From: Natrinema marinum
Lineage (GTDB): Archaea > Halobacteriota > Halobacteria > Halobacteriales > Natrialbaceae
Length of the DNA: 64,000 bases
Reading direction: 5' to 3'
Assembly (NCBI RefSeq): GCF_024296685.1
Contig: NZ_CP100763.1
Location: 3,224,001-3,288,000 of the forward strand
Shown here: positions 1 to 64,000 of the stretch, piece after piece
How the letters are laid out: the number at the start of each line of letters is the position of its first letter
Numbering within the stretch: position 1 is the first letter of the stretch
Notes under the pieces: model-generated
The model's database searches: none
The model's input: only the letters and a program-made list of their open reading frames with translations
What the model was told of the DNA's origin: nothing
Made by a program: the position numbers and the translations under genes

Positions 1-1320
1 CTCACGGCGCTGGACGCCATCGAGGTCGACGGCCACGCCTCATTGCCCGATGGCGAGGATGTCCACGAGGCCATCGAGACGGCCGTCATCGAGCGCATCG
101 GCGCGGACGGCGGCAAAATGCACACCGCACGCTCGCGCAACGACGAGGTCGCGGCCTGCATCCGGTATCGCCTGCGCGAGGACGTTCTCGAGGCGATCGA
201 GACCACGCTCGCGCTGCGCGAGTCGCTGGTCGAGGTTGCGGCCGAACACCGCGAGACGATCATGCCCGGCTACACTCACCTCCAGCCCGCTCAGCCCACC
301 ACCGTGGCCCACTGGGCGCTGGCCTACGAGGGCGCGGTTCGCCGCGACACCGAGCGCTTGCTCGAGGCTTTCGCACGGAGCAACGAATCGCCACTCGGCG
401 GCGCCGCGTTCGCGGGGACGACGTTCGACATCGATCGCGAACGCACCGCCGATCTGCTCGGCTTCGAGGGCGTCGTCGCAAACTCGATGGATGCCTCCTC
501 GAGCCGTGATTTCCTGCTCGAGACGGTGCAGGCGCTGTCGACGCACGCGACGACGCTGTCGGGGCTCGCGGAAGACGTGATCATCTTCGCGAACCGCGGC
601 TTCGTCGACCTCTCGGACGATTATTCCTCGACGTCGTCGATCATGCCCCAGAAGAAGAACCCGGACACGCTCGAACTCGTCCGTGCGGTCGCGGGCGACG
701 CGGCCGGCGGCGTTCAGGGGCTGACGACGACGCTCAAGGGGCTGCCCCGCGCGTACAACCGAGATCTGCAGCGGGCGACGACCCACGCCTGGGAGACCGT
801 CGACGCGGTAACCGAAGCCAGCGCGGTCGCGGCGGGCGCGGTCGCGACGGCCGACTGGAACGAGGAGACGCTCGCGGCGGAGGCCGGTGCGGGCTTCTCG
901 ACGGCCACCGGCGTCGCGGATCTGCTCGCGGCCAGCGGATTGCCGTTCCGCACCGCACACGAACTGGTCGCGATCGCCGCTGAGAATAGCGCGGAACGCA
1001 GTTCCGCGGAGAACGCGAGCGGTGATGAACCGCGAGCGAACGGGGCGGACTACGACGCCCTCGAGTCCGCAGCCCAGGAAGTGCTCGGCGAATCGCTCGA
1101 GGCCCACGTCGACCCCGCGGCCGTCGAGGACGCGCTCGACCCGGTCCAGAGCGTCGCGAGTCGCGACTCGCAGGGCGGTCCCGCCCCCGAAGCGGTCGCC
1201 GACCAGCTCGAGGCGGCCCGCGAGGCGCTGGCGGCGGACGAGGACGAACACGACGAGCGAACGGGGGCGCTCGAGGCGGCCCACGAGGCGCTCCGGTCGG
1301 AGGTGAACGAGTATGTCTGA
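1..1320 (+). CDS. argH: Argininosuccinate lyase, 5' end cut by the window
   Basis: Last step of arginine synthesis: cleaves argininosuccinate to arginine and fumarate in the cytosol. The reading frame is open to base 1, so the N-terminus lies outside; about 439 codons are present. The visible part carries fumarase/lyase superfamily signatures: the segment with HTARSRNDEV, the GYTHLQPAQPT block and the signature loop SSIMPQKKNPD, which holds the catalytic serine region. It ends 228 bases before lysW and heads the arginine gene run. Between two conserved helices near the C-terminus there is a 20-residue insertion (bases 986-1044) rich in Ser, Ala, Glu and Arg, encoded by two DNA hairpins; ordinary ArgH proteins lack such a segment as far as I know. 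The same element occurs in the helicase gene at 20 kb. argG, the usual partner, would lie upstream of the window. Confidence 0.95.
   Translation, partial: LTALDAIEVDGHASLPDGEDVHEAIETAVIERIGADGGKMHTARSRNDEVAACIRYRLREDVLEAIETTLALRESLVEVAAEHRETIMPGYTHLQPAQPTTVAHWALAYEGAVRRDTERLLEAFARSNESPLGGAAFAGTTFDIDRERTADLLGFEGVVANSMDASSSRDFLLETVQALSTHATTLSGLAEDVIIFANRGFVDLSDDYSSTSSIMPQKKNPDTLELVRAVAGDAAGGVQGLTTTLKGLPRAYNRDLQRATTHAWETVDAVTEASAVAAGAVATADWNEETLAAEAGAGFSTATGVADLLAASGLPFRTAHELVAIAAENSAERSSAENASGDEPRANGADYDALESAAQEVLGESLEAHVDPAAVEDALDPVQSVASRDSQGGPAPEAVADQLEAAREALAADEDEHDERTGALEAAHEALRSEVNEYV
986..1044 (+). repeat. In-frame palindromic element, copy 1 (inside argH)
   Basis: A 59-base segment made of two adjacent hairpins: GCGGAAC-GCA-GTTCCGC followed by a second hairpin with a GCGGT/ACCGC stem. 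It is translated in frame as a short polar insertion (Ser-Ala-Glu-Arg-Ser-Ser...). By hand alignment it matches 45 of 59 positions of 20432-20490 (minus strand), with the same phase relative to the host reading frame. Most differences fall in the second hairpin, where the stem changes on both sides and stays paired. It looks like a small repeat that inserts into genes without breaking the frame. Confidence 0.7.
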
Positions 1321-19087: not shown

Positions 19088-21208
19088 TTACAGCTCTTCG
19101 TCGCGGAGCTCGAGGTCGGCGACGAGTTCGTAGGGGTGGGCGTCCTTTCGGATGCCGTCGACGAGCGTGAACGCCTCGCCGGGTGCCAGGAAGTGCTCGG
19201 TGACGACGCGACCGAGCGGCGTGGGCTCGAAGCCGTCGATGAAGTCGTACTCGAGCAGCTTGCCGACGGCGTGTTTCGTCGGGACCTCGCCGAGCATCCG
19301 GTCGTTGAGCGCCTTCGCGGCTTTCCCGCCGACAGTGACGTTGGCGAGCGTTTCCTCGACGGCCGCGTCCTCGTCGTAGTGGGTCATCACCGACTCCATC
19401 TCTCCTTTGAGGAGTGTGAAAGCGACCTCGTCTTCGGTCATCTCCATCGAGTTGTGGTAGGTGCAGTCGGGTTCGACGAGGACGTACACCTTCCCCTCGT
19501 CGTGGTAGTCGGGTCGGCCCGCGCGGCCGAGCATCTGGTGGAACTCCTGGACCGAGAGCCACTCGATGCCCATCGCCAGCGAGTCGAAGACGACCTGCGA
19601 GGCGGGGAAGTCGACTCCCGCGGCCAGCGCGGCGGTCGTCACGACCGCCGATAGCTCTTGGTCGCCGAACTTGCGCTCGACTTCCTTCCGGCGTCCGTAG
19701 TCCAAGCCGGCGTGGTACGGCGCGGCGGAGTAATCGAGCTTCCGGCTGATCTCGTGACAGCGCCGCCGGGAGTTGGTAAAGATGATCGTCTGGCCGCGAT
19801 ACCCCTTCGAGGACTCGGTGTCGAACTCGCGTTTGACGAGTTTGTTCTCGACCCGGACCTTCTCTTGGCCGTCCGCGAAGGTGACGTGGCGCTCGATCGG
19901 TACCGGCCGCTCCTCGAACTCGATCAGCGTCGACTCGAGCGCCGCCGCCAACTGCTCGGGGTTGCCGACGGTCGCCGAGAGGGAGATCCACTGCGCGCCG
20001 CCGTAGTCGTCGCGGCGTTTCGCCCGCTGCTCGCAGGTGTATTTCAGCCGCGAGATGAGGCCGTCGAGCCGGTGGCCCCGTTCGTCCTCCTTCAAGGTGT
20101 GGACCTCGTCGATGACGACCGTTCCGATGTCGCCCATGTCCTTGCCCGTCCGCAGGGCGTGGTCGATCCCCTCGTAGGTGCCGACGATGACGTCGGCGTT
20201 GGGATCGAACTGGTTACCGTTGTCGGCGATTCGGCTCGCGCCGACGCGGATGGAGACGTCGACGAGGTGGCCATACTCCTCTTCGAAGTCCTCGTGTTTC
20301 TGGTTCGCGAGCGCGACGAGGGGGACGAGAAAGAGCATCTTCCCCTTGCCGTTTAGCACGCGGTTGATGCCGGCCATCTCGCCGATGAGCGTCTTCCCGG
20401 TCGCCGTCGCCGAGACGACCAGCTGGTCCTCGCCGTCTGCTCGCGGGCTTCGCCCGCTCGCGTGGTCCGCGGAACTCCGGTCCGCGCTATCGAAGAGCCC
20501 GTTCTCGACCGCGAGGCTCTGGACCGGCAACAGGGTCTCGAACCGGTCCTCGAGCAGCCCCTGGAGCCCCGGATGGAGGTTCAACGAGTCCGTCCGGACG
20601 GGATCGACCTCGTCGGTCGTCGCCGAAATGGTATCGAACTTCGTCAGATCGGGATCGAGTCGGCCCTTGAGCAGGTTGACGATCCGTTCGAGGTCTTGGA
20701 CCTCCATCATGAGGTCCTCGAGTCGATCCTTCGCAGCGCCGGTCACCTCGCCGCCGCCGGCAAAGGAGAGTTGGCGCTCGAGTTCCTGGCGCGCGCAGTC
20801 GCGGCAGATCCAGTCCTCGTCGTCTTTGACCGCGGTCTCGGTCGTCACCGGCGAATAGCGGCCCGCGGAAGCGCAGTACCGGCAGGTCCGCACGGCCTTG
20901 GCTTTGTCCTCGAGCTGATAGCCCGACAGCATCTCCGTCAGCTCTCGGCGAGCTTCCGGCGAGGTCTGCTCGGAGATGCGGATGCGCTCGGCTCGGCGGG
21001 CGAGTTCGACGAACTCGTCGGGCTGGCGGGGTTCCTCGCTCGAGCCGTCTTTGAGGCGAAACTTCGCGGGGCGGGGACCGGCCGACGTTTCGGAGAGGCC
21101 GAGTTTCGCCCGGAAGAGCCGCTGTCCGTCACGTTCGACGACGACGAGGTAGTCGTCGCCCGTCTGGTGACAAAAGATCGTTTCGACCTGCGGGACCTGC
21201 TTCGACAC
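19088..21208 (-). CDS. Ski2-like DEAD/DEAH-box helicase with zinc finger
   Basis: 706 residues from GTG 21208. An N-terminal domain with a zinc site (CRYCASAG...CRDC) precedes the helicase core: motif I SATATGKT, motif II DEVH, motif III SAT, motif IV IIFTNSRRRC, and motif VI QMLGRAGRP. The motif set is closest to Ski2/Hel308-type helicases. GTG 21208 is chosen because SKQVPQVETIFCH is the typical start and an AAATA element lies 26 bases upstream; the open frame extends 40 codons further to 21328. Just before motif I there is an insertion, DSADRSSADHASG and onward, encoded by the 59-bp palindromic element that is also in argH. Likely role: DNA repair or RNA remodelling. Confidence 0.88.
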   Translation of the reverse strand: MSKQVPQVETIFCHQTGDDYLVVVERDGQRLFRAKLGLSETSAGPRPAKFRLKDGSSEEPRQPDEFVELARRAERIRISEQTSPEARRELTEMLSGYQLEDKAKAVRTCRYCASAGRYSPVTTETAVKDDEDWICRDCARQELERQLSFAGGGEVTGAAKDRLEDLMMEVQDLERIVNLLKGRLDPDLTKFDTISATTDEVDPVRTDSLNLHPGLQGLLEDRFETLLPVQSLAVENGLFDSADRSSADHASGRSPRADGEDQLVVSATATGKTLIGEMAGINRVLNGKGKMLFLVPLVALANQKHEDFEEEYGHLVDVSIRVGASRIADNGNQFDPNADVIVGTYEGIDHALRTGKDMGDIGTVVIDEVHTLKEDERGHRLDGLISRLKYTCEQRAKRRDDYGGAQWISLSATVGNPEQLAAALESTLIEFEERPVPIERHVTFADGQEKVRVENKLVKREFDTESSKGYRGQTIIFTNSRRRCHEISRKLDYSAAPYHAGLDYGRRKEVERKFGDQELSAVVTTAALAAGVDFPASQVVFDSLAMGIEWLSVQEFHQMLGRAGRPDYHDEGKVYVLVEPDCTYHNSMEMTEDEVAFTLLKGEMESVMTHYDEDAAVEETLANVTVGGKAAKALNDRMLGEVPTKHAVGKLLEYDFIDGFEPTPLGRVVTEHFLAPGEAFTLVDGIRKDAHPYELVADLELRDEEL
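20432..20490 (-). repeat. In-frame palindromic element, copy 2 (inside helicase)
   Basis: Read on the minus strand it has the same two-hairpin layout as 986-1044. The first hairpin is nearly GCGGACC-GGA-GTTCCGC with one mispair; the second is GCGGGC-GAA-GCCCGC, perfectly paired. It is translated in the same phase as in argH, giving a related 20-residue polar insertion (shared pattern SAxRSSAxxASGxxPRAxG). It lies a few residues before helicase motif I, in a surface position that can accept extra residues. Confidence 0.7.
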
Positions 21209-43028: not shown

Positions 43029-43165
43029 GGGGGTAGGATGGGGGTGGGGGATCGGGGGTGGCGACAGTCTATCTCAGATCGCCATTTATCGGTACGCCCC
43101 GTGGGAAAGTAAATATATTTTCTAACTATTTGGTAGCTATTAGACGATAATACTAATCAATTAGT
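43029..43165. repeat. G-rich intergenic repeat, copy A
   Basis: A G-run region (GGGGG-T-GGGGG-ATC-GGGGG, able to form a G-quadruplex) is followed by a 31-base core (43054-43084) that occurs exactly again at 43377-43407. The core holds a hairpin, TGGCGA...TCGCCA, around a nested ATCT-C-AGAT. A more diverged A/T-rich tail of about 80 bases ends in the palindrome ACTAAT-CA-ATTAGT (43152-43165). No open frame fits. The stretch 42929-43028 and the 43166-43354 spacer hold nothing recognisable. Confidence 0.75.
43152..43165. promoter_or_regulatory. ACTAAT-nn-ATTAGT palindrome, site 1
   Basis: ACTAATCAATTAGT, perfect arms with two central bases. Sister sites lie at 43474-43486 (ACTAATTAATTAG) and 45728-45741 (ACTAATAAATTAGG). 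The three sites bracket the HTH-10 regulator gene at its 3' side (two) and 5' side (one), which suggests binding by one regulator, perhaps that gene's own product. Confidence 0.45.
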
Positions 43166-43354: not shown

Positions 43355-43486
43355 GGGGGAAAGGGGGGGGGGGATTGGGGGTGGCGACAGTCTATCTCAG
43401 ATCGCCACTTACGGGTAGGTTCGGGGAGTGGTTAAGTATACCTTCTATCTCTTTGGAGGCGCTCTAGCAGGATACTAATTAATTAG
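43355..43486. repeat. G-rich intergenic repeat, copy B
   Basis: Copy of the preceding element, offset 323 bases and in the same orientation. The G run is longer (GGGGG-AAA then 12 G, ATT, 5 G), the 31-base core is identical, and the tail keeps TTCTA and TTTGG landmarks plus the terminal palindrome ACTAAT-TA-ATTAG. The tail runs into the stop codon of the regulator gene at 43479. Confidence 0.75.
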
Positions 43487-61809: not shown

Positions 61810-64000
61810 TCAGGCCGTCCCCGATCCGCCGAGGGCGTTGTTCTGATAGGTGACGGCCGTCGTCGACACATTGCTCGCGTTGGTATAGAGACCGTACCCG
61901 GCGCCGTTGCGAATCGTGGTGTTCTCGATGAGCAGGCGCGAGCCAATGTACGCCGCCACGTTCGCCGGTTCGACCCGGTGGTTGAAGCGCTCGGACCCGG
62001 CGTACTCGACGACCGCGTAGACGAGCCGATTCTCGACGCGGTCGCTCTCGCGGTAGGAAAGCCCTCGCCAGAAGCCGGCCGTCTGCTGTTCGCCGGTGAA
62101 CGTGATCGGCGTGTCGGCCGTCCCGGTCGCGTCGAGACTCCCGGTCGACCGGACCTCCACTCCCGCGTTGCTCTCGAAACTCACCGTCGCACCGGCCTCG
62201 ATCGCGAGGTCGCCTCGGACCTCGAGTTCATCTTCGACGACGTAGCGGGCGTCGACGGCCTCCCACGTAACGGACGATCCCTCCTCGATCCCGTCGCTCG
62301 TGGGGATCACGTCGATGCGGTCGTCGTCGTTGCCGACGTACGTGCTCGTCTCGGGGAAGAAGCCCGAACTCGGACTGCGGACCCAGGCGGCGCCGCTCGC
62401 GTTCTTCGTGACCGTATTCCTGTGGAACGAGTCGACGCTCTCGTTCGAACTGACACAGACGCCGTAGCCACCACTCTCTCGAATCGTGGAGCTATCGACC
62501 CTGAGCCGCGAGCCCGCGCGGACGGTGACGTTCGCAGCGACGGTGCTGTGGTAATAGCTCTCCGCACCGCCGTACTCTACGACGGCGTGGGCGAGCCGGT
62601 TGTCGGTCCGATCAGTATCGCGGAACTGGAGGCCGCGCCAGTAGCCGCGGGTTTTCTGTTCGCCGGTGAACGTGATCGGATCGACCGACTCGTCCTGGTT
62701 CAGTCCGACCGCTCTGAGGCTGCCGTCGTTCCGCACGTCGAGACCGGCGTCCTGTGCGAAGCTCACCGTCGCGCCGGGTTCGATCGTCAGGTCGCCGTAG
62801 ACAGGAAGCACGTCGGTGGCCACGTAGCGGGCATCGACGGCCTCCCAGCTGTCGGAGACCGTTTCCGGAACGCCGTCGTTCGTCGGCACGACATCGATAC
62901 GGTCGTCGTCGTTGCCGACGTAGGTGCTCGTGTCCGAGAAGTAGTGCGAACTCGAGCTGCGGACCCAGGCGGCGCCGCTCGCGTTCTTCGTAACCGTGTT
63001 GTTGTGGAACGAATCGACGGTCTCGTTCGAACTGACGCAGACGCCGTAACCACCGCTCTCGCGGACGGTCGCGTCGTTGACTCTGAGCCGCGAGCCCGAA
63101 CGGACGGTGACGTTCGCAGCGACGGTGCTGTGGTGATAGCTCTCCGCGCCGCCGTACTCGATGACGACGTGCTCGAGTCGGTTCTCGGTGCGGTCGGTGT
63201 CGCGAAACTGGAGGCCGCGCCAGTAGCCGCGGGTTTTCTGTTCGCCGGTGAACGTGATCGGTGCCACCGACTCGTCGCCGTTCATTCCGACGGCCGTGAG
63301 GCTGCCGCCGTTTCGCGAGTCGATCCCCGCGTTCCGCTCGAAGCTCACCGTCGCGCCGGGAGCCACCGTGAGCCGACCGTAGTTCGACACTACCTCCGTC
63401 AGCACGTAGGGGACGTCGGTGACACCCCACTCCACGTCCGCGGATCCGGGGATACCGCCGGACGTCGGCGCCACGCGAACTCGGTCCTTGTCGTTACCAG
63501 TGTACTCACTTCCGCCGTCGAAGTGGTGGGCGCTTCGATCCCGACACGCAGCTGCGGTCTCGTTGCCGGTGACGAGACACTGATCGAATGCGTCGAGCGC
63601 CGCATCGTATCGGAGGTAGATCCCCTCGCCAGCGTTCTCGCGGATCGTACACCGCTCGAGCGCGACGCGCGAATCGAGCAACTCGAGGCCTGCGGCCCGA
63701 ACGGTGTGGTGGCTTCGCGCTCCGCCGGCGTACTCGACCGTGACGTGGCGAAGCCGGTTATCGAGGCTGTTCGATCCGTCGAAGACCAATCCGTTCCAGT
63801 ACCCCCGCGTAGCCTGCTCGCCGGTCAGGCGGATCGGCTCCTCGCAGCTCCCCTGCGCGGTCAGACTCGAGCCGTCGCGGACGTGCAGGGACGCGCCGTT
63901 CGCGAACGAGACGGCCGTCCCCGGCTCGATCGTCAGGTTCGCGCCGTTGGTGACCTGGATCTCGTTCGTCACGCGATAGTGCGAACACGTGTCGCCCCAG
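61810..64000 (-). CDS. Right-handed parallel beta-helix surface protein, 5' end cut by the window
   Basis: At least 729 residues; the frame is open through base 64000, so the start is missing. It is built of repeated modules of about 194 residues, each with GATVSFE... N-cap strands, an ITFTGEQKTRGYWRGLQFRDTDR block, VEYGGAES..HSTVAANVTVRSGSRLRV, SGGYGVCVSSNE and a TYVGNDDDRIDVVPT end. Such right-handed beta-helices carry carbohydrate-active enzymes or adhesins; no catalytic residue is apparent. Two of the central modules are nearly identical in DNA, for example 62624-62679 equals 63206-63261 over 56 bases. It is probably an exported or S-layer-associated protein. The N-terminus and any signal or anchor lie beyond the window. 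Confidence 0.85.
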   Translation of the reverse strand, partial: WGDTCSHYRVTNEIQVTNGANLTIEPGTAVSFANGASLHVRDGSSLTAQGSCEEPIRLTGEQATRGYWNGLVFDGSNSLDNRLRHVTVEYAGGARSHHTVRAAGLELLDSRVALERCTIRENAGEGIYLRYDAALDAFDQCLVTGNETAAACRDRSAHHFDGGSEYTGNDKDRVRVAPTSGGIPGSADVEWGVTDVPYVLTEVVSNYGRLTVAPGATVSFERNAGIDSRNGGSLTAVGMNGDESVAPITFTGEQKTRGYWRGLQFRDTDRTENRLEHVVIEYGGAESYHHSTVAANVTVRSGSRLRVNDATVRESGGYGVCVSSNETVDSFHNNTVTKNASGAAWVRSSSSHYFSDTSTYVGNDDDRIDVVPTNDGVPETVSDSWEAVDARYVATDVLPVYGDLTIEPGATVSFAQDAGLDVRNDGSLRAVGLNQDESVDPITFTGEQKTRGYWRGLQFRDTDRTDNRLAHAVVEYGGAESYYHSTVAANVTVRAGSRLRVDSSTIRESGGYGVCVSSNESVDSFHRNTVTKNASGAAWVRSPSSGFFPETSTYVGNDDDRIDVIPTSDGIEEGSSVTWEAVDARYVVEDELEVRGDLAIEAGATVSFESNAGVEVRSTGSLDATGTADTPITFTGEQQTAGFWRGLSYRESDRVENRLVYAVVEYAGSERFNHRVEPANVAAYIGSRLLIENTTIRNGAGYGLYTNASNVSTTAVTYQNNALGGSGTA
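62624..63261 (-). repeat. Tandem module repeat in the beta-helix gene
   Basis: The bases 62624-62679 and 63206-63261 are identical over 56 bases, 582 bases apart (194 codons), and much of the intervening module also matches. The neighbouring outer modules are more diverged, which points to recent gene conversion or duplication of a module. Confidence 0.8.

Follow-up and report, generated by a model that had tools for sequence, protein, structure and literature searches.

Rickettsia palindromic elements (RPEs) are 105-150 bp long and form one long stem-loop with terminal inverted repeats (PMC2229807, PMC10969869). Together with their equivalents in Wolbachia they resemble a short element which we describe here from the haloarchaeon Natrinema marinum: all are palindromic and dispersed, lying partly between genes and partly in frame within unrelated housekeeping genes, where they insert a peptide at a place that the protein tolerates. 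An earlier analysis from the letters of the DNA alone (the sequence-only reading) had drawn this likeness, and it fits in kind. However, unlike the RPEs, the element is 45-57 bp in length, has two hairpins with a GA/GA internal loop and no terminal inverted repeat, and is found class-wide in halophilic archaea. The coding palindromes of Rickettsia and Wolbachia are thus its closest kind, but as size, architecture and host differ we do not file it as an RPE.

Coding palindromic repeats have also been reported in Methanocaldococcus jannaschii (Suyama et al., 2005, as cited in PMC2996958 and PMC2229807); as far as the citing papers portray them, they share with our element an archaeal host, palindromy and in-frame placement in protein genes. 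By comparison, no strong copy of the present element was found outside Halobacteria in the phylum searched, outside which M. jannaschii itself may lie. The sequence-only reading knew of no description for haloarchaea; we likewise found none in the openly licensed literature, but M. jannaschii shows that archaeal coding palindromes as such were already known. Within the haloarchaea, the PATEs and small mobile repeats of Haloquadratum are, according to the available text of their description, short, transposase-free and palindromic, without target duplication, and the PATEs are tied to IS605-type ends (PMC3119063). As described there, PATEs match our element in host group, size class, palindromy and the absence of a transposase of its own, and possibly in the lack of a target duplication. 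However, in-frame copies in housekeeping genes do not figure in the available text (PMC3119063), and no tie to IS605-type elements was found here at TnpB or Y1 loci. The REPs, which are extragenic and carry GTAG or CGTC tags (PMC3733652), offer a further comparison. REP/RAYT systems share with our element short hairpins and a high copy number, but most of its strong copies are intragenic (17 of 26 in ORFs), its consensus starts with GATAGCG without GTAG, and this genome has no match to PF01797.

Taken together, our analysis makes it highly likely that we are dealing with a mobile, non-autonomous element of about 50 bp and two DNA hairpins, which disperses through haloarchaeal genomes and is kept in genes when it lies in the sense orientation and in the one acidic frame. 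Such mobile DNA, which resides in genes and leaves them functional, is widespread and apparently undescribed. Coding palindromic insertions, known mainly from intracellular bacteria, would be common to an entire class of archaea, where a genome carries dozens of them, often in core enzymes. Annotators should expect alignments and phylogenies of haloarchaeal proteins to be disturbed by these inserts.

Two copies in the window and the anatomy of the element

The window, a stretch of 64,000 nucleotides from the N. marinum chromosome (NZ_CP100763.1, positions 3,224,001 to 3,288,000), holds two copies. The first resides in argH, the single-copy gene for argininosuccinate lyase (1..1320, plus strand, its 5' end cut by the window edge; Pfam Lyase_1, E 1.5e-55; E down to 1e-82 against argininosuccinate lyases in the PDB). 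The second lies in a gene for a Ski2-like DEAD/DEAH helicase (19088..21205, minus strand; Pfam DEAD and Helicase_C), whose start was set at GTG, as in its orthologues, and whose closest solved relative is 7ujb. The sequence-only reading had aligned 986-1044 with the minus strand of 20432-20490, and its count of 45 identities in 59 bases is exact. It was also right that the copies are read in the same phase, both lying in open frames of identical phase, and that each folds into two hairpins. Its length of 59 bp stands for the match, but the inserted segment as delimited by orthologues is 54 bp in each case. Copy 1 occupies 984..1037 on the plus strand (76 bits with covariance model R2), with a junction ambiguity of 3 bp (GAA). 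Copy 2 occupies 20438..20491 on the minus strand, just upstream of the Walker A motif, with a junction ambiguity of 2 bp (GA).

In copy 1, hairpin 1 (990..1008, plus strand) has an 8-bp stem and a 3-base loop (fold z -4.1, with covariation), and hairpin 2 (1014..1038, plus strand) consists of a 3-bp outer stem, a GA/GA internal loop and a 5-bp inner stem, the outer and inner stems both covarying. The fold and the alignment A4, which comprises 31 ungapped copies of 59 bases, place the corresponding hairpins of copy 2 on the minus strand at 20468..20486 and 20438..20462, the latter with the GA/GA internal loop and a GCGAAGC triloop hairpin. Hairpin 2, for which the sequence-only reading had noted compensated stem differences, is longer than had been stated. 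The copies in A4 begin with a short edge at the 5' side (GATAG), followed by hairpin 1, which has a stem of 8 bp and a loop of 3 bases, then by a GGA-containing linker and hairpin 2, in which an outer stem of 3-4 bp, the symmetric GA/GA internal loop and an inner stem of 5-6 bp lead to the loop. The encoded peptide follows the pattern S-A-x-R-S-S-A-x-x-A-S-G-x-x-P-R-A. We also considered a MITE and rejected it, as A4 shows no terminal inverted repeats and there is no target duplication of constant length.

Copies in the genome, the genus and the class

Shuffled sequences lead one to expect 0.04 occurrences of the core pattern in the window, which has two. A BLAST search with copy 2 against the whole 3.77-Mb chromosome recovered copy 1 (E 1.2e-8), and additional matches fell in the genes for a DUF255/YyaL protein, an Elp3 and a GlpC-like protein. 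A first covariance model, built from four copies, detected about 26 strong copies in the genome (E <1e-4); besides those in ORFs, nine lie between genes or where a gene ends. Three weaker matches also lie in ORFs, which brings the in-ORF copies to 20. Pfam identifies the host genes as Lyase_1, DEAD helicase, Elp3, topoisomerase I (TopA), Hel308, PurK, PDH E2, a class I tRNA synthetase (ValRS), MBL/rhodanese, amidase (GatA), COX1, iPGM (GpmI), TruD, acyl-CoA dehydrogenase, LigA, a pyridine-nucleotide oxidoreductase and DHH/DHHA1. Neither Rfam nor a phage collection yielded a match to the element; two pattern matches on viral contigs proved not to be the element. A scan of genome contigs with ArgH recovered mainly bacterial sequences, with just three from haloarchaea.

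Orthologous loci reveal exact empty sites. The carrier status at argH and the helicase gene was established from translated loci and orthologue lengths. None of 24 congeners has the helicase insert (orthologues of 2061 or 2058 bp against 2115 bp here), nor do five aligned orthologues from other families, one of which has a short unrelated indel; in the protein alignment there is a clean break at GLF/DGED, which precedes Walker A, and 7ujb shows an 18-residue gap at this point. The argH insert is present in four of 25 genomes (our own, G005, G015 and G020), and the other congeners lack it at this position. By the criteria of the sequence-only reading, ancestral linkers or a lack of further copies would have spoken against a mobile element; with both inserts absent from close relatives and many more copies in the host genome and the class, neither outcome occurred. 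Of its "mobile or converting element", the mobile part is upheld by the further copies and empty sites, and conversion is not needed.

For 16 further host genes, located in eight congeners by one concatenated search, the corresponding stretches were compared. In all, 14 sites have clean empty orthologues, with inserts of 45-57 bp whose length is in every case a multiple of 3: 57 bp in TruD; 54 bp in argH, the helicase, YyaL and ValRS; 51 bp in Elp3, TopA and CoxI; 48 bp in PurK, MBL, GpmI, acyl-CoA dehydrogenase and LPD; and 45 bp in DHH. Among the genomes sampled, the inserts in the helicase, MBL, TruD, acyl-CoA dehydrogenase, LPD and DHH occur in our own only, and the remainder are common to sub-clades. 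The GatA site is messier, and those in Hel308, PDH E2 and GlpC, which lie in length-variable linkers, are weaker cases. Such filled and empty sites within one genus constitute a natural experiment on the lengthening of proteins by mobile DNA. Insert and target have 0-3 bases in common at the junctions, often GA (GA in the helicase and TruD, GAA in ArgH, 2-4 bp in YyaL), and no target duplication of constant length appears across the junctions analysed. Since GA also begins the codons for Asp and Glu, which are common in loops, a target preference and selection are not separable in this signal. One loop of PurK (L046, L273-L276) holds at least three versions of the element in different species, which suggests repeated insertion or replacement at one site. 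In LigA the element occupies the same region in two congeners (L065 in our genome; L094 in G002), our own copy being decayed and expanded.

A survey with an improved covariance model found the element in 240 of 292 sampled Halobacteria genomes, representing 66 of 77 genera, as against one marginal match (E 9e-4) in roughly 240 genomes of the phylum outside Halobacteria. Plasmid records in RefSeq contain it as well: the host genes are those for CobN in Natronococcus occultus and for MerA in Halorussus, Salinigranum, Salinirubellus and Natrinema, besides one for mismatch repair. The plasmid MerA copies (L387, L389, L390) occupy the same site in several haloarchaeal genera, which indicates that copies also travel with horizontally moved genes. 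In genomes of two families, copies L091 and L092 share a position in a selenium-binding-protein-like protein, reflecting an old insertion, horizontal transfer or a hotspot.

Reading frame and stem covariation

All in-ORF copies examined, comprising 20 in our genome, 23 in relatives and 22 in the wider class, are in the sense strand and in one phase; a few other loci show no convincing ORF. That one of six possible readings is used is not attributable to chance. In the 31 copies, the used frame (sense frame 0) gives a mean net charge of -2.0 and the lowest hydropathy, as opposed to the other frames, which yield charges of +4.0 to +4.7, hydrophobic peptides or stops (in 22 of the 31 copies), some being neutral. 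Haloarchaeal proteins are acidic, and because only the used frame is acidic, selection would eliminate antisense insertions and those in any other frame, which explains the single orientation and frame. The filled and empty sites within the genus are also a natural experiment on how a reading frame becomes adapted to a host proteome of acidic halophilic proteins. Judging from the frame, the lengths and the lack of stops, the host protein would gain 15-19 residues, likely roughly neutral, in a surface loop that tolerates them. In an AF2 model covering the part of ArgH within the window, the insert (pLDDT 60-70 against a model mean of 89) lies in the C-terminal part and is flanked by two helices, a predicted position in line with such a loop. 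Insert-bearing CobN and MerA proteins are annotated in RefSeq.

Between insertion sites, 97.2% of the pair cells in A4 are standard, a share which is biased upwards as the copies were gathered by a structure-aware model; slid controls are paired in 32-53%. The changed cells are 86 two-sided against 1 one-sided, and two-sided differences are not produced by that bias. The 15 unpaired cells mostly concern the loop-closing pair. G-T pairs make up only 2 of 527 cells, a near-absence that is unusual for RNA and points to a DNA hairpin. In contrast, hand-aligned orthologous alleles at seven sites display 18 one-sided changes (12 broken pairs, 6 G-T) versus 1 two-sided change (Fisher p ~3e-11 for the contrast, of descriptive value only as the cells are not independent). 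Two-sided change between sites together with one-sided change within them implies that copies must keep their stems paired as long as they disperse, and lose the pairing once they have inserted; the lack of covariation among alleles of one site speaks against a function of the stems in the host gene or its mRNA. On these alignments, the hairpins appear to matter for dispersal and not once inserted, as is expected of a mobility substrate. With this contrast, the long-debated mode of movement of such elements becomes testable. As the sequence-only reading had proposed, folding and covariance were considered together: both window copies fold, and the stems covary.

Mobilization and alternative explanations

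Dispersal, clean insertion, frame, orientation, spread through the class, stem covariation between copies and decay after insertion are all evident from the sequences. In the account that we propose, the element lands in genes and intergenic regions alike. A copy in a gene persists if its sense strand encodes a soluble acidic linker in a single frame, and the host protein would then be translated with the 15-19 extra residues in a tolerated surface loop. Movement most likely proceeds via the hairpins as single-stranded DNA with an enzyme supplied in trans; this putative enzyme would recognise the hairpins in that form and paste the element without a sizeable target duplication. The fuller version of this account posits a class-wide family that moves as single-stranded DNA hairpins by way of the putative enzyme, its sequence being constrained to an acidic, salt-compatible peptide in exactly one frame, which colonises essential genes without inactivating them; we offer it tentatively, considering the chances of its being right nearly balanced but slightly on the doubtful side.

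With respect to the enzyme, the element could be a terminal-only relic, comparable to a PATE, for which a past or present Y1 (HUH) transposase would transfer the single-stranded DNA in the peel-and-paste manner of IS200/IS605. It is short and palindromic, without terminal inverted repeats or a clear target duplication, several targets have GA on their left edge, as the insert has at its end, and 52-bp haloarchaeal PATEs are, in the available text of their description, derived from IS605-type elements (PMC3119063). However, Y1_Tnp (PF01797, the IS200-type transposase) has no match in this genome and is absent from several copy-rich genomes (G007, G020, G021, G029), but present in the copy-free G032-G034. 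Further, its number shows no correlation with element copy number (rho -0.006, 41 genomes), and no element adjoins the five TnpB genes of this genome or the four Y1 loci examined in relatives. We hence regard this origin as possible but rather doubtful. It is unlikely that the stem covariation arises from template-switch correction between the hairpin arms in lieu of selection on a transposition substrate. Such correction would account for two-sided changes with almost no wobble intermediates, but within one site the alleles show one-sided changes that break pairs (18 versus 1), which implies that arm correction is not acting on resident copies.

Other readings would dispense with a DNA substrate or with a mobile element altogether. 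Spread through RNA, by insertion into mRNAs and return by reverse transcription, would explain why every in-gene copy is in the sense strand; yet selection would remove antisense frames, which specify basic or hydrophobic peptides, the stems lack the G-U intermediates expected of RNA, and intergenic copies exist, making this route improbable. The segment might instead never reach the protein, owing to archaeal intron removal or to ribosome skipping. The latter is known from the mitochondria of Magnusiomyces, where ribosomes skip the hairpin 'byp' elements, and the similar size, the hairpins and the insertion into essential genes recall these. However, a skipped segment would have no need of a length in multiples of 3, as found at each of the 14 clean sites, nor of a single phase, freedom from in-frame stops and use of the only acidic frame; this reading is very improbable. 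At 15-19 residues the insert is too short for an intein, and the element has no match in Rfam. Finally, the probability is negligible that the segments are polar loops of old standing whose likeness stems from composition or convergence. They do lie in tolerant loops, and the Hel308, PDH-E2 and GlpC sites are in length-variable linkers, but identity at the DNA level with covarying hairpins, exact empty sites in close congeners and the 18-residue gap relative to the solved homologue speak against it, and it is refuted for the sites with clean empty orthologues.

Several further repeats were observed. Four intergenic copies (L048, L052, L060 and L061, at C1:306192, 2602890, 1557276 and 44671) lie within a longer repeat of about 116-190 bp, which reads GACGACTGACCCG...GGAGGAGTGCTTTT...TTTTGCCGAGGG, has no Rfam match and is 97% identical between two copies over 116 bp. 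A second intergenic repeat of about 130 bp (L049, L055 and L062, at C1:2303071, 2440643 and 3347433) combines a variant of the element with a following AGAAATCGG(T/C)TGGGGAG. At C1:1207316-1207496 (L044), a tandem pair with a period of 117 bp and an extra hairpin in between lies at the 3' end of an ORF. Within the window, direct repeats of 152-300 nt at 61958-63261, spaced by about 570-582 bp and 72-85% identical, are apparently a tandemly duplicated domain or gene, and two G-rich repeats of 94 nt with 79% identity (43040-43133 and 43363-43456) are possibly duplicated upstream regions.
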